Made by a program: the position numbers and the translations under genes. 64,000 bases of DNA from Rhizobiales bacterium 2SD. GTDB taxonomy: Bacteria > Pseudomonadota > Alphaproteobacteria > Rhizobiales > Beijerinckiaceae. The stretch covers positions 124,001 through 188,000 of the forward strand of contig SCMY01000006.1 of assembly GCA_005502805.1 (NCBI GenBank). The letters run 5' to 3'. This document shows positions 4,645 to 46,451 of this stretch, one piece after another. Below the pieces are notes generated by a model. The model did not search any database. It saw only the letters and a list, made by a program, of their open reading frames with translations, and had not been told where the DNA came from. Each line of letters opens with the position of its first letter. Position 1 is the first letter of the stretch.

Positions 4645-5342
4645 CAGGCGGCCTTCCGGAAATCGGTGATGTCGAGATAGCGGGTCGCGACAGCCTCTCG
4701 CACGGCCTCGTCATGGAAGATACCGACGATTGCCGAGCCCTGCTCGCGCGCTTCGGCGATCAGCCTGACCACGACATTGCGGTTGTTGGCATCGAGCGAG
4801 GCGGTCGGCTCGTCGATCAGCATGATCGGCGAGGGATCGACGAAGGAGCGGGCGATGTTGACGCGCTGCTGCTCGCCGCCGGAGAAGGTCGCAGGGGCGA
4901 GATCCCAGAGGCGCTGCGGCAGGTTGAGGCGGGCCAGCATCGCCTTGGCGCGTTCGCTCGCCTCCTCGGGAGAGACGCCGCGGGCGAGCAGCGGGTCGCG
5001 AACGATGTCGAGCGCCGTGACACGCGGGATCACCCGCAGGAACTGCGAGACGAAGCCGAGCGTGCGGCGGCGGATGTCGAGGACGGTGCGCGGCACGGCC
5101 GAGACGATGTCGATCTGCCGGCCGCCATGGGTGATGGCGATGGCGCCGGAGGTCGGCCGGTAATTGCCGTAGAGGATGCGCAGCAGGCTCGATTTGCCGG
5201 CGCCGGACGCGCCGGCAAGCACCAGCGCCTCGCCGGCGGCGACCGAAAAGTTGACGTTGTCGAACACCGGCAAGCGCACGCCGCCCTGATTGTGCAGGGT
5301 GAATTCCTTGGCGACGTTCTCGACGTGAATCATCGTGGTCAT
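4644..5342 (-). CDS. phnL: Phosphonate C-P lyase system ABC-type protein PhnL
   Basis: The product is a 232-residue ABC-family ATPase with Walker [10 protein letters not shown] (about residue 44), signature [15 protein letters not shown] and Walker [13 protein letters not shown]. It resembles PhnL by length and by the N-terminal [16 protein letters not shown]. PhnL works with PhnG, PhnH and PhnI in the reaction that attaches the phosphonate to the ribose of ATP. No permease accompanies it, which fits a catalytic rather than transport role. It is separated from phnK by 166 bases carrying a family A palindromic repeat, unlike the overlapping joints elsewhere in this operon. It overlaps phnM downstream. 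Confidence 0.93.
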
Positions 5343-5394
5343 GATCGAGATGCCTTGCGGGTTCGGGGTGACGCGGTTGTGACGAAGGCTCCAC

Positions 5395-5489
5395 CGTCAT
5401 GCTCGCCCTTGTGGCGAGCATCCACGTCTTGAACACCGCTCTGGCAGCAGGAAGACGTGGATGGTCGGGACAAGCCCGACCATGACGGG
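5395..5489. repeat. Family A intergenic palindromic repeat, copy 1
   Basis: The unit begins CGTCATG and ends CATGACG. It contains two small hairpins, CTCGCC-CTTGT-GGCGAG and GGTCGGGACAAGCCCGACC. Internal arms ACGTCTT and AAGACGT pair across the centre, so the whole element can fold as a bulged palindrome. Near-identical copies lie at 12181-12281 and 40494-40587, and related ones at 39885-39967 and 50506-50614. It occupies the phnK-phnL gap. A REP/BIME-like or non-autonomous mobile element is the likely nature. Confidence 0.85.
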
Positions 5490-5508
5490 AGAGATGGTGG
5501 CGAGAAGC

Positions 5509-6315
5509 TCATACGGTGAGCACCGCCGAGGTAAGCAATTGCGTGTAGGCGTGATGGGGGTCGTCGAGGACCTGGTCGGTCAGGCCTTGCTCGACGACGC
5601 GGCCATCCTTCATCACCATTAGACGATCGGTGAGCAGGCGCGCGACGGCGAGATCGTGGGTGACGATGATCGCGGCGAGGCCGAGATCGCGCACCAGCAC
5701 GCGCAGCAGGTCGAGCAGGCGGGCCTGGACGGAGACGTCGAGGCCGCCGGTCGGCTCGTCCATGAAGACGAGCTTCGGCTCGGAGACCAGCACACGGGCG
5801 ATCTGCAGGCGCTGCTGCATGCCGCCGGAGAACTGGCGTGGCCGGTCGTCGATGCGACCTGCCGCGATCTCGACACGCTGCAGCCAGTCGAGCGCGGTCT
5901 CGCGGATCTTGCCGTAGTGCCGCGCGCCATTGTCCATCAGGCGCTCGCCGACATTGCCGCCGGCCGAGACGTCCATGCGCAGGCCGTCGCGCGGATTCTG
6001 GTGGACGATTCCCCACGCGGTGCACATCAGCCGGCGCCGCTCCTGCTCGGCAACCGAGTAGATGTCGAGCGGCTCAGTACCGCCCCGGAACAGCACCTGC
6101 CCCTCATCGGGCTTGTCGATGCCGGCAAGGCAACGCAGCAGGGTCGACTTGCCCGAGCCGGATTCGCCGACGATCCCCAGCACTTCACCCGGCCAGAGGT
6201 CGAAGGAGACGTCGGCGCAGCCGATACGCTCGCCATAGAAGCGGGAGACACCGGCGACCGAGAGCAGTGGGGCAGGATCGAGCCCGAGTTCCTGCGGATT
6301 GACCTGCATGTTCAT
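5509..6315 (-). CDS. phnK: Phosphonate C-P lyase system ABC-type protein PhnK
   Basis: The product is a 268-residue ABC ATPase with Walker A GESGSGKST, signature FSGGMQQRLQIARVL, Walker B LVFMDEPTGGLD and the late HDLAVARLL switch histidine. The oligopeptide-ABC-like sequence and the PhnJ neighbour identify it as PhnK, which binds the PhnGHIJ core complex and is needed for C-P bond cleavage in vivo. The start at 6315 overlaps the phnJ stop codon in an ATGA arrangement. The frame stays open upstream to 6402, but that extension lies inside phnJ and is arginine-rich shadow sequence. A family A repeat separates this gene from phnL. Confidence 0.94.
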   Translation of the reverse strand: MNMQVNPQELGLDPAPLLSVAGVSRFYGERIGCADVSFDLWPGEVLGIVGESGSGKSTLLRCLAGIDKPDEGQVLFRGGTEPLDIYSVAEQERRRLMCTAWGIVHQNPRDGLRMDVSAGGNVGERLMDNGARHYGKIRETALDWLQRVEIAAGRIDDRPRQFSGGMQQRLQIARVLVSEPKLVFMDEPTGGLDVSVQARLLDLLRVLVRDLGLAAIIVTHDLAVARLLTDRLMVMKDGRVVEQGLTDQVLDDPHHAYTQLLTSAVLTV

Positions 6316-7238
6316 GGCTTGGCCTCGTCTTCGACCAGATGCAGCGCCGAGGCGTCGGCGAGCATGGCGCCGCGATGGCCCTCGGCCCGCCGCGTCTCGC
6401 AATGATGGCTGTCGGAGCAGACGAACATCCGCCCGCCCTGGTCGTCGATCACCACCTCGTCGAGATAGGAATCGGCGGCGCCGCAGAGCGCGCAGGGCTG
6501 CTCCCAGCTCTGGATGCGGAAGGGATGGTCGTCGAAGTCGAGGCTGCGCACGCTGGTATGTGGCGGCACCGCATAGATGCGCTTCTCGCGGCCGGCGCCG
6601 AAGAGCTGCAGCGCCGGCGACATCTGCATCTTCGGATTGTCGAATTTCGGGATCGGCGACGGCGCCATCACATAGCGGCCATTGACCATGACCGGGTAGT
6701 CATAGGTCGTCGTCACCTCGCCGAAGCGGGCGATGTTCTCGTAGAGCTTGACCTGCATCAGCCCGTATTCGGCCCAGGCGTGCATCTTGCGCGTCTCGGC
6801 CTCGTGCGGCTCCAGCTTCCTCAGAGGCTCGGGCTGCGGCACCTGGTAGACCATGATCTGTCCGGCCTTCAGCGGCGCCTCGGGGATGCGGTGGCGGGTC
6901 TGGATGATCGTCGCCTCATCGGTCGCCTCGGTGGTACGCGCATCGGCGGTGCGCTCGAAGAAGCGGCGGATCGAGACGGCGTTGGTGGTGTCGTCGGCGC
7001 CCTGGTCGATGACTTTCAGCGTGTCGTCCGGGCCGATGATCGCGGCGGTGACCTGGATGCCGCCAGTGCCCCAGCCACGGGCGAGCGGCATCTCGCGCGA
7101 GCCGAACGGCACCTGGTAGCCGGGAATCGCAACTGCCTTGAGCAGTGCGCGGCGGATCATCCGCTTGGTCTGCTCGTCGAGATAGGCGTAGTTGTAGGCC
7201 GGCCTGGTCTCGTCGCTGATGCTCTGGTGCACGGTCAT
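6312..7238 (-). CDS. phnJ: Alpha-D-ribose 1-methylphosphonate 5-phosphate C-P lyase PhnJ
   Basis: This 308-residue enzyme is the radical S-adenosylmethionine lyase that breaks the carbon-phosphorus bond, releasing the alkane and the ribose cyclic phosphate. The four-cysteine cluster is intact: C249, C252, C274 and C280 with spacing C-X2-C-X21-C-X5-C, the same spacing as in the Escherichia coli enzyme. The N-terminal YNYAYLDEQTKRMIRR and the central GYQVPFGSREMPLARGWGTG region are typical. Both ends overlap neighbours by four bases (phnI upstream, phnK downstream), showing tight coupling of the core complex genes. Confidence 0.97.
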   Translation of the reverse strand: MTVHQSISDETRPAYNYAYLDEQTKRMIRRALLKAVAIPGYQVPFGSREMPLARGWGTGGIQVTAAIIGPDDTLKVIDQGADDTTNAVSIRRFFERTADARTTEATDEATIIQTRHRIPEAPLKAGQIMVYQVPQPEPLRKLEPHEAETRKMHAWAEYGLMQVKLYENIARFGEVTTTYDYPVMVNGRYVMAPSPIPKFDNPKMQMSPALQLFGAGREKRIYAVPPHTSVRSLDFDDHPFRIQSWEQPCALCGAADSYLDEVVIDDQGGRMFVCSDSHHCETRRAEGHRGAMLADASALHLVEDEAKP

Positions 7239-8356
7239 TCCGCGGCCTCCGGCAGGGCTTCGCTCTGTTGATCGGCAAGGCGCTGCTCGCGCTCCTTGCG
7301 AATGCGGCGGATCAGTTCGAGCTCGCCCTGGAAATCGACATAGTGCGGCAGCTTGAGATGCTCGACGAAGCCGGCCGCCTCGACATTGTCGGAGTGGTAG
7401 AGGACGAATTCGTCCTGCTGGGCCGGATAGGTCGCCGCCTCCCCGAACTCGCGCGCCTTCAGCGCCCGGTCAACCAGCGACATCGACATCGCCTTGCGCT
7501 CGCTATGGCCGAAGGAGAGCCCGTAGCCACGGGTGAACTGCGGCGGCACCTCCTTGGAGCCGGCGAACTGGTTGACCATCTGGCATTCGGTCAGGGTGAC
7601 GTCGCCGAGATCGACGGCGAAGCCGAGCTCCTCCGGGACGTATTCGACGGCGACCTCGCCGACACGGACCTCGCCGACGAAGGGGTGGCTGTTGCCGTAG
7701 CCGCGCTGCACGGAGTAGCCGAGGCCGAGCATGAAGCCCTCGTCGCCGCGCGCCATCGCCTGCAGGCGGACATCGCGGTCGGCCGGGAAGGTGACGGGCT
7801 CGCGGGTGAGATCGAAGGGGCGCGGATCGCCTGCCGGTGGCGCTTCCTCCTCCATCAAACCCTCGGCGCCGAGAATGTCGGGCACGCGCGGCATCGAGGC
7901 GTCGAGCGGCTGCGTGGCCGGGCGGGCCGGGCTCTCAGCCGGAGCAGCCTGATCCATCAGCGTGAAGTCGAAGAGCCGGTGGGTGTAGTCATAGGTCGGG
8001 CCGAGCACTTGGCCGCCCGGGAGGTCCTTATAGGTGGCTGAGACGCGGCGGCGGATCGACATCTTCGCGGTATCGAGCGGCTCGGAGGAGCCGAAGCGCG
8101 GCAGGGTGGTGCGATAGGCGCGCATCAGGAAGGCGGCCTCGATCGCATCGCCCTGCGCCTGCTTCAGCGCCAGCGCGGCGAGATCGGGGTCATAGAGCGA
8201 GCCCTCGTTCATGACGCGCCCGCAGGCGAGGCCCATCTGCTCGCGGATCTGCGCGACGCCGAGCTCCGGCACGTTCTCATCGCCGCGACGTGCCTCGGCG
8301 ACGAGATCATGGGTTGCGAGGATGGCGGCTTCGCCGCCTTTGACCGCGACATACAT
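7235..8356 (-). CDS. phnI: C-P lyase core subunit PhnI
   Basis: The 373-residue product is a little longer than the E. coli protein (about 354). PhnI carries the nucleosidase activity that, with PhnG, PhnH and PhnL, moves the phosphonate onto the ribose of ATP with loss of adenine. The start MYVAVKGGEAAI at 8356 is the family start, and the upstream open frame to 8641 overlaps phnH and is not used. Recognisable segments include EQMGLACGRVMNEGSLYDPDLAALA and the C-terminal HLKLPHYVDFQGELELIRRIR. The stop codon overlaps the phnJ start. Confidence 0.95.
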   Translation of the reverse strand: MYVAVKGGEAAILATHDLVAEARRGDENVPELGVAQIREQMGLACGRVMNEGSLYDPDLAALALKQAQGDAIEAAFLMRAYRTTLPRFGSSEPLDTAKMSIRRRVSATYKDLPGGQVLGPTYDYTHRLFDFTLMDQAAPAESPARPATQPLDASMPRVPDILGAEGLMEEEAPPAGDPRPFDLTREPVTFPADRDVRLQAMARGDEGFMLGLGYSVQRGYGNSHPFVGEVRVGEVAVEYVPEELGFAVDLGDVTLTECQMVNQFAGSKEVPPQFTRGYGLSFGHSERKAMSMSLVDRALKAREFGEAATYPAQQDEFVLYHSDNVEAAGFVEHLKLPHYVDFQGELELIRRIRKEREQRLADQQSEALPEAAE

Positions 8357-8378
8357 TAGTAACGCTCCCGGCGGGGCA

Positions 8379-8984
8379 TCAGCGGATCTCCACGATTTGC
8401 GTCGAGCGCGGCAGGCCGAGCACCTGCGCGCCATGGACCAGCAGAACGTCGACACCGAGCGGGTAGACTGCAGCGTTGTCTTCGACCTCGGCCCAGAAGG
8501 CGGGGCGCAGGCCAGTCGGGGCGATGCTGCGCTGGCCGGCGATCCCGGGGCCTTCGAGCGTGACGGCCTCGCCACCGTCGAGCCCGGCACACTGGACGAG
8601 CACCGTGGTCGAGCGATCGGGGAACTGATCGTCGCCGGCATTGAAGGCGGCGAGCTTCGGCTCGGTCGCGGCGCCGTCGATCACGGCGAAGGCCGCCTTG
8701 GCGGGATCGTCGACGAGTGCGGCGCCACAATGGAAGCGCAGCCAGGCGCCGGCAGGACCGTCGCGCAGGGCGGCCGGCAGCCAGATCGGGGTCTCGTAAT
8801 CGGCCAGCGTCAGCAGCGCGACGGCAGTCGCCGGCTCGAGCCCTGCGGGCGGCACGACCGCATCGCCGAGATCGCAGGCGAGGCCAGGCTCCGAGAGCGC
8901 GGCCAGCAGAGCGCGGAAGGCGCCTTGCGATTGGAAGACCGGGTCGGCGAAGCCGGCGCCGATGAGGGTGTCGTTGGGAGTCAT
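8379..8984 (-). CDS. phnH: C-P lyase core subunit PhnH
   Basis: This 201-residue protein is a non-catalytic subunit of the PhnGHIJ complex. The start MTPNDTLIGAGFADPVFQSQGAFRALL and the LADYETPIWLP and TTVLVQCAGL segments match the family, and the length is usual. The ATG overlaps the phnG stop by one base in an ATGA arrangement (8982-8986), and 22 bases separate it from phnI. No departures from the family are evident. Confidence 0.93.
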   Translation of the reverse strand: MTPNDTLIGAGFADPVFQSQGAFRALLAALSEPGLACDLGDAVVPPAGLEPATAVALLTLADYETPIWLPAALRDGPAGAWLRFHCGAALVDDPAKAAFAVIDGAATEPKLAAFNAGDDQFPDRSTTVLVQCAGLDGGEAVTLEGPGIAGQRSIAPTGLRPAFWAEVEDNAAVYPLGVDVLLVHGAQVLGLPRSTQIVEIR

Positions 8985-9424
8985 CAGCCGCCCCTGACCA
9001 GCGTGAAGAAATCGACCTTGGTGGCAGCCGCCTTGCGCGAGGCGAGTTCGCGGGCTGCCTGCTGCTTCTGCGCCAGCGCGAAGACGCCGCGCCGCAGCGG
9101 GCCGGTCTCGATCTCGCTTTGGAGGAGCGCGTCGGTGACAGCGGCGAGGCGCGCCTTGCGCCCGTCGCGGCCGAGTGCATAGGAGAAGCCCATGGCGCCG
9201 CCTTCCAGCCGGACGACGCAGCGCGTCACCGTCGCCTCGCCGAGGTTGAAACGGCGGCCGGCGCCGCCGGCGCGACCCTCGACCATGACGGTGCCGGTCT
9301 CGGGCGCCTTGAGCAGTTCATGCGTCGGCAACGGCCCGGCCTGCTGCAGCAAGGCGTCGATCTCGCCTTGCGTTGCACGAGCCAGCACTGCCATCCAATG
9401 CTGGCGTGTTGCGATGTCCGTCAT
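8984..9424 (-). CDS. phnG: C-P lyase core subunit PhnG
   Basis: The protein has 146 residues and is the first gene of the leftward C-P lyase operon. It includes the family segments RQHWMAVLARATQGEID and FNLGEATVTRCVVRLEGG followed by the glycine-rich YALGRDGRKARLAAVTDALLQ. PhnG is part of the heteromeric PhnGHIJ core that activates phosphonates. The ATG at 9424 is preferred over the upstream in-frame start at 9445. The two HutC-type operators at 9454-9461 and 9487-9494 lie just upstream, so repression by PhnF is likely. Confidence 0.93.
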   Translation of the reverse strand: MTDIATRQHWMAVLARATQGEIDALLQQAGPLPTHELLKAPETGTVMVEGRAGGAGRRFNLGEATVTRCVVRLEGGAMGFSYALGRDGRKARLAAVTDALLQSEIETGPLRRGVFALAQKQQAARELASRKAAATKVDFFTLVRGG

Positions 9425-45153: not shown

Positions 45154-45492
45154 TCAGCGCGATTTCGTATCTTCGCCGATCTTCCTGACGCTGACCTTGC
45201 CCTTGGCGTCGACCGTCGCTTCGTAGGTCAGGAGGTCGGTCCGCTCCTCCTGCGCGATAGAGACGGTGAAGGACGTCGTCGAGTTCTGCTTGATCGCGCT
45301 GATGCCACCGCCGCCGACCTGGGTGTAGGTCCGGCTGATATCGGCGAGGATCGCCTCGATGATGCATTTTGAGCGTTCGATCGCGTTCATCTGGCAGCGC
45401 TTTCCTGTGGCGTGAGCCGGGCCGAGCAAGCCGAGCATCCCGCTGAGAACGAGAATGATCATGGCAAGGTTTCGCGGGGCGGTTGACGTCAT
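45154..45492 (-). CDS. Small exported protein of unknown function beside a metalloprotease
   Basis: The 112-residue product has a clear signal peptide (MIILVLSGMLGLLGPAHA, cleavage near residue 28) and a mature part of about 84 residues with two cysteines (C33 and C43) that could form a disulfide. The C-terminal half alternates polar and hydrophobic residues (TSFTVSIAQEERTDLLTYEATV), suggesting beta strands. I do not recognise the family. It lies directly downstream of the metzincin-like gene; an alternative ATG at 45522 overlaps that gene's stop in an ATGA arrangement. An inhibitor or immunity role toward the protease is possible but unproven. Confidence 0.6.
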   Translation of the reverse strand: MTSTAPRNLAMIILVLSGMLGLLGPAHATGKRCQMNAIERSKCIIEAILADISRTYTQVGGGGISAIKQNSTTSFTVSIAQEERTDLLTYEATVDAKGKVSVRKIGEDTKSR

Positions 45493-45518
45493 CGCGGTTC
45501 CGCCGGGTCGAATGGCTG

Positions 45519-46451
45519 TCATTTGCGATTTGGCCGGGTCGTCAGCATGGCGTTCGTCGCGACCTCCGCCGGTAGCCGCGGGTAGAGCTTCTGCAGCTTG
45601 GCTTCCCAGTCGCCCGTCGCCAGGGCATTGCCCTTGCCGGAGAGCGCGACCATCGCCTTGCGCCAGGGCATCGCGTGGCTGAGCCGCAGCTGCATGCCCT
45701 GACCCATCACCGAATACTTGTCGACATCGGCGACGCCGTAGCAGTTCGACGCGTTGGTGTCGCCGCCGGGCGGGCAATGCGGCTTGCCGACATCGACATG
45801 CGCGAGCCCGAGCAGATGACCGATCTCATGGACATGGGCGCGCTGCATGATCGGCTTGCCTTTGCTGTTGCGGCCCTTCTTCACGGAATTGATGTCCAGG
45901 CTGTCATACAGCTTGGCATGCGAGCCGAACCAGGTCTCGCTCTTGTGCAGCCGGACCACGTCGATGACGTGATGGTGGCCGCCGAGCTTGATGTCGCGAT
46001 CCTCGATCTTCAGAAGGCACCAGATGTTGGGTCGGTACCGCAAGCTCGTGCTGTCATCGGCCCGGAAGCCGGCAGGGAGCCAGGACTTGCCGTCCCAGGG
46101 CCGGATCCCGACCGGATTATGCTGGATCCAGATGCCGAGCGGATTCTTCTCGCACTCGTAGAGCGGGAAATTGTTGGAAAGCCAGAACTTGCCGTTCCAG
46201 AAGCGGGTCGCCGACGCCACGAAGTTCTGCTTCCATAGATTCCAGCTGCCGGTCGTCCATTTGACGATCTTGCGGGTCGTTTCGGCGGGATCTCCATAGT
46301 CGTGATAGGCGCCTTCGGCTGTGCCGCCGGCTGGGTTGATCTGCCGGAAGCCGAGCTTCAGCGTCAATGTCAGCTCTGCATTGGTGTAGGCATCGCAGCG
46401 GTCGGTGTTCAGTTCGGCCTCGAACTGCGGAAGGCTCATCGCCAGCTTCAT
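45519..46451 (-). CDS. Metzincin-type zinc metalloprotease, no visible signal peptide
   Basis: The 310-residue protein carries HEIGHLLGLAH at residues 208-218, an exact HExxHxxGxxH zinc site (H208, H212, H218, catalytic E209), followed by a candidate Met-turn SVMGQGM with M249, the combination that defines metzincins. The first 200 residues are tryptophan- and asparagine-rich (KWTTGSWNLWKQNF, RFWNGKFWLSNNFPLYE) and unfamiliar. No signal peptide or membrane segment is seen at the ATG chosen (46451) or in the extension to 46556. Six cysteines are scattered through the chain. It forms a two-gene unit with the small exported protein and is divergent from sdhC, 250 bases away. Confidence 0.72.
   Translation of the reverse strand: MKLAMSLPQFEAELNTDRCDAYTNAELTLTLKLGFRQINPAGGTAEGAYHDYGDPAETTRKIVKWTTGSWNLWKQNFVASATRFWNGKFWLSNNFPLYECEKNPLGIWIQHNPVGIRPWDGKSWLPAGFRADDSTSLRYRPNIWCLLKIEDRDIKLGGHHHVIDVVRLHKSETWFGSHAKLYDSLDINSVKKGRNSKGKPIMQRAHVHEIGHLLGLAHVDVGKPHCPPGGDTNASNCYGVADVDKYSVMGQGMQLRLSHAMPWRKAMVALSGKGNALATGDWEAKLQKLYPRLPAEVATNAMLTTRPNRK

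Follow-up and report, generated by a model that had tools for sequence, protein, structure and literature searches.

A metzincin-like protease and its small exported partner as a candidate type VI secretion effector-immunity pair

Why would a bacterium encode a zinc protease without an export signal directly upstream of a small protein that is itself exported? Such a gene pair lies in the 64,000-nucleotide stretch of DNA from Rhizobiales bacterium 2SD analyzed here (hereafter, the window). An earlier note on this DNA proposed that the two genes encode a toxic protease delivered by a specialized secretion route and a periplasmic inhibitor or immunity protein. The features of the locus are as follows.

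45519-46451, minus strand: protease gene, 310 amino acids, stop codon included in the coordinates (ATG at 46451, stop at 45519-45521); putative type VI secretion system (T6SS) effector
45798-45830, minus strand: zinc site HEIGHLLGLAH, protease residues 208-218, read from the sequence
45696-45707, minus strand: Met-turn of the protease, M249-G250-x-G252 (VMGQG), unchanged across all 23 aligned sequences
46047-46142, minus strand: insertion of 32 residues (approximately 104-135) in the protease, shared by none of the 22 homologues aligned with it
45154-45492, minus strand: small-protein gene, 112 amino acids, stop codon included in the coordinates (ATG at 45492, stop at 45154-45156); proposed periplasmic immunity protein
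45409-45492, minus strand: signal peptide of the small protein, residues 1-28, recognized by eye from a hydrophobic core and AHA (26-28) before the cut

The two genes share the minus strand and lie between neighbors that, by eye, are MaoC-like and sdhC-like, and the small gene starts 26 bases past the protease stop codon. The anatomy described in the earlier note holds: the protease combines a full HExxHxxGxxH site with a Met-turn and, judged by eye, has no hydrophobic N-terminus, and the closely coupled downstream gene encodes a product with a leader ending in AHA and a mature part of 84 residues that includes two cysteines, C33 and C43. For both genes, Ka/Ks values of 0.18-0.25 relative to two Bosea relatives indicate purifying selection at the protein level, so that the pair is not a chance arrangement of reading frames. 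The 32-residue insertion is in frame; part of it resembles, by eye, the adjacent WNGKFWL stretch, and the segment (46047-46142, minus strand) gives a DUF2510 match below the threshold.

The first 200 residues of the protease, which according to the earlier note match nothing familiar and could form a targeting domain, indeed produced no match above the cut-off in Pfam or NCBIfam; the protease as a whole matches the Reprolysin profiles of Pfam weakly. This region is, nevertheless, conserved in the 22 aligned relatives and, in the structural model, lies within the catalytic domain. The model, which was built with 23 sequences, has a mean pLDDT of 87.7 and a pTM of 0.85 and consists of one domain, into which the N-terminal region packs; low confidence is limited to the region of the insertion (residues 114-130, pLDDT below 50). 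A separate N-terminal targeting domain is thus not supported and was rejected, the respective region being part of a single, predicted metzincin-like domain. In a second-look structure alignment, the 50 rows listed have Z scores of 5.2-6.8, mostly over model residues 7-270; these include ADAM, ADAMTS, pappalysin, MMP, karilysin and snapalysin structures, and are all metzincins as far as the titles tell. Foldseek returned nothing with E < 0.2 for the same model, and a PDB sequence search with the protease gave chance-level rows only. Judging by the motif and by this consistent though weak fold similarity, the window protease is a predicted divergent metzincin.

The small protein is modeled, from a four-sequence alignment, with one helix packed against a sheet of four strands (mean pLDDT 74.8; above 90 in the core). 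Its best fold match is a designed cystatin-fold protein (Z 9.3, rmsd 1.9, 72 residues). A second designed protein comes next (Z 7.8), and the remaining rows, mostly NTF2-like and VirB8-like structures, have Z of at most 7.4; Foldseek found nothing with E < 0.04. Given a model based on four sequences and these mixed matches, the predicted cystatin-like fold tells nothing certain about the function. None of 25 small proteins matched any Pfam family, Inh included, at E 0.01.

To trace the pair, we scanned 84,980 species genomes with a four-sequence alignment as the query and obtained 32 loci, for which protease identity is given as that of the best tblastn segment. In all 24 loci with protease identity of at least 43% (23 genomes), the protease gene is directly followed by one that encodes a homologue of the small protein. 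These loci span Bosea, Reyranella, Rhodobacteraceae, Sphingomonas, Azoarcus, Rubrivivax, Competibacteraceae, Methyloprofundus, Teredinibacter and others; the genome with the window is Bosea-like, the closest named carriers being Bosea sp. and a Boseaceae bacterium. The HExxHxxGxxH motif is present in each of the 24 loci, including L120 and L122, where the surrounding reading frame is interrupted at other points, and a strict search pattern for the Met-turn matched in 22. Among the small proteins (25 aligned rows), C33 is conserved throughout and C43 in all but one; the aligned relatives likewise start, by eye, with a hydrophobic leader, apart from the L123 row, which comes without its start. 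The protease alignment (A6) comprises 22 of the 32 scan loci; omitted are L104, which is a near duplicate, L120, which has an internal stop, the frameshifted L122, L123, whose end is unclear, and the distant L127-L132. The small-protein alignment (A7) likewise omits L104; it includes two of the L114 copies (three in all) and a single L117 copy (of two), and the L123 row starts inside the protein, no start having been identified for it.

Fifteen more distant relatives of the protease (G066, identical to L129, G025, G019, G167, G456, G538, G592, the second copy in G011, L125-L128 and L130-L132) present a different picture: the small-protein profile, which matched in all 24 loci above, matched nowhere in their examined sequence, which includes no downstream part for L128 and is partly lost at contig ends for G025, L128 and some other MAG loci. 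Because this profile was built from A7, its matches in the A7 loci arise by construction, and what it adds is the absence in these 15 relatives and the extra tandem copies described below. Protease homologues without the small gene, the observation that the earlier note named as one that would speak against the pair, were therefore not encountered at identities of 43% and above (24 of 24 paired) but are the rule among the distant relatives (0 of 15 paired).

In a search of the order, 42 of 397 genomes matched, five of them over the full length (two are genus carriers); the other matches, short, with E from 1.9e-6 to 1e-3 and mostly over the zinc motif, were taken for other metalloproteases and set aside, with the exception of a second, weaker match in G011, which was retained as a distant relative. 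This paralogue (L082:9175-10152, plus strand), which G011 encodes in addition to the pair, contains HEVGH without the usual spacing of the third histidine and has no Pfam match at E 0.1. At E 1e-7, class- and phylum-wide profile searches, which were weak in that only 5-6 candidates per genome were scored, yielded no matching genome beyond the genus.

Within the genus, a DNA search of 67 genomes located both genes at the same site in eight species. A ninth carrier, G232, has both elsewhere (64% and 47% identity), on a short contig beside a transposase gene; that contig also carries genes resembling HigB/HigA (by eye). In 45 of the 58 genus genomes without the pair, the site is empty, the flanks being no more than about 250 bases apart by hand count (for example, 35 bases in G052); the remaining 13 comprise G189, in which 944 bases separate the flanks, and genomes with one flank or none. 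Judging by the empty sites and the transposase gene next to the G232 copy, the pair is gained or lost as a unit and can move. In loci L111, L112 and L123, assigned to Rhodobacteraceae by title, the pair follows an msrA-like gene and is succeeded by malic-enzyme-like and/or mutS-like genes (by eye), a neighborhood that is a recurrent insertion place.

Several loci depart from the simple arrangement in what would be the antidote or the toxin. Three tandem small genes are present in Azoarcus locus L114 and two in L117 of the same genome, and, in 2 of the 24 loci, the protease is broken, by an internal stop (L120) or by frameshifts (L122), with the small gene intact. The distances between the partner proteins correlate, with a Mantel r of 0.84 for 21 pairs and 0.63 for the 17 pairs left after the removal of near duplicates, values reached in 0 of 10,000 permutations; this correlation speaks to co-inheritance and not to contact, given that shared ancestry alone can produce it.

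The genome with the window locus encodes VgrG, TssA, TssB, TssC, Hcp, TssE, TssF, TssG and TssH in a cluster on another contig (VgrG and TssC were called by profile and the others by eye). Co-occurrence of the pair with T6SS in other genomes, which the earlier note suggested checking, was borne out: TssC (PF05943) is present in all 27 carrier genomes, 9 of 9 in the genus (where loci L101-L105 are the members G132, G205, G011, G229 and G232, counted once) and 18 of 18 outside it, compared with 38 of 200 genomes in a phylum sample that included the genome studied here. For the 18 carriers outside the genus against this sample, the Fisher p is about 2e-12; one of them, G1342, has a divergent TssC copy (E 3e-41) and no other. 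The complete co-occurrence in the genus is weak evidence because T6SS is common there anyway (52 of 67 genomes; 9 of 9 carriers vs 43 of 58 non-carriers, p 0.086). Narrower comparisons were made around two carriers, with all phylum, genus and family background genomes taken regardless of the presence of the pair. TssC was found in 4 of 30 other genomes from the genus of the Sphingomonas carrier G1345 and in all three carriers titled Sphingomonas, and in 7 of 30 others from the family of the Tabrizicola carrier G1338 and in all five carriers of that group, assigned by title. Of the genomes searched for TssC, seven have a distant relative only; four match PF05943 and three do not, one of the latter (L131) having a TssC of PF17541.

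Physical proximity to T6SS genes, also raised in the earlier note, was seen at a minority of loci only. We searched flanks of up to 10 kb by tblastn with nine T6SS proteins of the genome itself and two proteins of the G167 cluster. The only linked pair locus (1 of 24) is that of Contendobacter (L122), where TssH, TssG, TssF and TssE follow from about 3.5 kb beyond the small gene; no T6SS gene was detected in the examined flanks of the window locus and of the other 23 of the 24 related loci. Nor does the window protease contain a delivery domain of the VgrG, PAAR or Rhs type detectable with Pfam.

Among the 15 distant relatives, four (G167, G456, G538 and L131) are inside T6SS clusters and 11 are not beside T6SS genes, so this is a wider protease group that is partly T6SS-linked. 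In G167, VgrG and TssA on one side are followed by an exported DUF1036 protein and the protease, and then by TssH; the DUF1036 gene (L078:3611-4120, minus strand) is directly downstream of the protease relative, where an immunity gene would stand. In G456 and G538, which come from one genus and are not independent, the protease relative, with an extra N-terminal part, is directly behind TssH. The Chitinophagaceae locus L131 encodes VgrG, a DUF4123 protein, a large protein, the protease relative, a ClpV-type ATPase and TssC of PF17541. One further relative, G592, has a C-terminal OmpA domain (PF00691); such domains usually bind peptidoglycan, which suits a periplasmic site of action. Beside the T6SS cluster and protease relative of G538, there is also a protein with a CHAP domain and an unassigned N-terminal region (L076:10207-11157, minus strand) that looks like another T6SS effector candidate.

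Taken together, the pairing in 24 of 24 loci, the tandem small genes, the intact small genes beside broken proteases and the presence of TssC in 27 of 27 carriers vs 38 of 200 sampled genomes argue for the core of the earlier proposal, namely delivery of the protease by a specialized secretion route together with a periplasmic antidote. Most probably, the two genes are a T6SS effector-immunity pair, that is, a periplasm-acting metalloprotease and its immunity protein. From the features of the pair, we infer T6SS-dependent secretion, toxicity and action in the periplasm, direct inhibition of the protease by the small protein, and the nature of the substrate.

The same anatomy, a signal-less metzincin with a small periplasmic inhibitor, is familiar from serralysin-Inh pairs, in which the protease is secreted by the type I route and the periplasmic inhibitor guards the producer. 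A serralysin-like protease exported through an ABC-type system, with the inhibitor protecting the cell from leakage, would further account for the weak Zn_serralysin profile matches in 4 of 23 family members (best E 3e-5) and for the best Foldseek row of the protease, an alkaline protease at E 0.21. However, the window protease scores 11.7 bits with this profile against a cut-off of 500 and contains no RTX repeats (GGxGxD/N), and none of the 25 small proteins matches Inh or any other Pfam family; on the missing repeats and the missing Inh match, type I secretion was rejected. By eye, no HlyB/HlyD-type exporter pair was recognized in the neighborhoods, although other ABC transporter genes occur (L081, L082, L110), and T6SS is present in all 27 carriers, so we regard this explanation as very unlikely. 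Only slightly less improbable is a toxin-antidote pair delivered by another machine, such as a type IV killing system or an extracellular contractile particle, or released by prophage lysis. That the pair is mostly far from T6SS genes would fit this possibility, as would the distant relative G019, which is located beside prophage-like genes and an integrase (by eye); against it are the complete co-occurrence with T6SS among the carriers searched, far above the background, and the lack of any protease match in viral contigs or phage records.

The least probable alternative is a self-directed, housekeeping module, with the protease and the exported protein acting in the envelope or stress response of the producer and nothing being injected. 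Conservation of the small protein under purifying selection and the constant position in eight genus species are compatible with such a role, but the distribution is patchy (9 of 67 genus species) and spans distant classes, the pair moves as a unit, the antidote occurs in tandem copies, and it is retained where the protease is broken.

Other origins were also considered and rejected. As cargo of phages or plasmids, the pair found no support, the window protease being unmatched in phages, plasmids and viral contigs; in the plasmid search, the protease of the relative L107 and the small protein were unmatched as well. Nor does it belong to a known defense family, with no PADLOC match and a single, chance-level PHROGs row. 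Separately, the protease relative of G019 (L081, approximately 5281-9289) has an extra N-terminal domain and adjoins the integrase at the edge of the prophage-like genes (by eye).

The earlier note considered the pair the best candidate for an undescribed system, which is too strong a claim because T6SS metallopeptidase effector-immunity pairs have been published; the comparisons below draw on the parts of the cited papers that were available. The closest precedent is VgrG2b, which does no harm in the cytoplasm but is toxic once in the periplasm, requires its HEXXH motif, and is bound by the exported protein PA0261 that protects against it (PMC6899460). In view of this precedent, the observations on the pair are consistent with a T6SS effector that acts in the periplasm and its immunity protein. 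VgrG2b-PA0261 and Tpe1-Tpi1, as described there, share with the window pair a zinc metallopeptidase effector with a small gene directly downstream, a toxin that acts in the periplasm (inferred for the window protease) and an exported immunity protein with cysteines (PMC6899460). Pairs in T6SS loci are described there and, for the family studied here, are represented by Contendobacter L122. The proteases differ in that VgrG2b and Tpe1 have HEXXH in a thermolysin-like fold, given as “HEXXH+E” in a figure legend of PMC12992299, a paper on a further member of that family, whereas the window protease has HExxHxxGxxH in a metzincin-like model; the “HEXXH+E” signature does not describe the related loci, where a third histidine is present in 24 of 24. 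Furthermore, the window protease stands alone, whereas VgrG2b is fused to VgrG, a distinction drawn from descriptions and not from sequence comparison.

Metzincin-type T6SS toxins have some precedent as well. The Salmonella SPI-6 protein SESEF3709_03438 is a computationally identified candidate T6SS effector with a Reprolysin_4 domain (PMC10469887); according to that paper, it lies in a T6SS cluster. It resembles the window protease in having a metzincin-type (M12B) domain and in being encoded beside a gene for an exported putative immunity protein and, compared by description, has 243 amino acids against 310. An M12-family metalloprotease is listed among the T6SS-associated toxins of four Acinetobacter genomes (PMC6838775). 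This table entry shares the metzincin class with the window protease, which implies that metzincin-class T6SS toxins have been proposed before; by its description, the Acinetobacter toxin differs in its 878-879 residues and in the DUF4123-containing protein of the same row. The Listeria Mtz-Tim system (PMC8235301) is likewise a two-gene combination of a metzincin and a small inhibitor-like protein at the cell envelope but, according to the parts available, involves a secreted metzincin that cuts a lipoprotein, a TIMP-like partner, a phage-derived locus and a Gram-positive host. Tox-MPTase1-5 (PMC3482391) are, similarly, zincin-like toxin peptidases of bacterial conflict systems; they are HExxH domains of Rhs-type toxins, and the portion of their description that was available contains no standalone pair. 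An M91 PAAR-Rhs effector of Salmonella Dublin contributes to competition (PMC8867033), and passages of PMC6833914 retrieved with metalloprotease terms contain nothing on the protease/small-protein family. None of the libraries searched has a name for the family, and no description of the family was found in the literature, where most subscription papers were outside the search, so that this absence is not proof. The pair is thus best read as an unnamed family of a known kind, that of T6SS metallopeptidase effector-immunity pairs.

Under the T6SS reading, the protease would fold in the cytoplasm without a signal peptide, be loaded onto the T6SS and be injected into neighboring bacteria, where, as a zinc metzincin, it would cut an envelope protein or a peptidoglycan peptide in the periplasm. 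The producer would export the small protein, with its predicted cystatin-like arrangement of a helix on a four-stranded sheet, through Sec, and there it would bind and block protease injected by sister cells. This proposal would explain both halves of the initial question: the protease has no signal because the T6SS machine delivers it, and the antidote is exported because the toxin of sister cells arrives in the periplasm.

Animals have cystatin-like inhibitors of metzincins. It is conceivable, though on balance somewhat doubtful, that the pair represents a widespread T6SS effector-immunity family of Alpha-, Beta- and Gammaproteobacteria, with a metzincin that attacks targets in the periplasm and is blocked by a bacterial cystatin-fold protein, a convergent echo of the animal inhibitors, with distant protease relatives reaching as far as a Chitinophagaceae T6SS cluster. 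T6SS effectors encoded away from T6SS genes are hard to find, and the pair provides a compact candidate effector family that occurs in no fewer than 27 genomes with a T6SS; going by the record titles, many of these genomes are environmental. If the proposal is correct, it would add a metzincin to the periplasm-acting T6SS proteases, together with a small exported inhibitor whose predicted fold is cystatin-like, and the substrate of the protease would point to an important component of the cell envelope.
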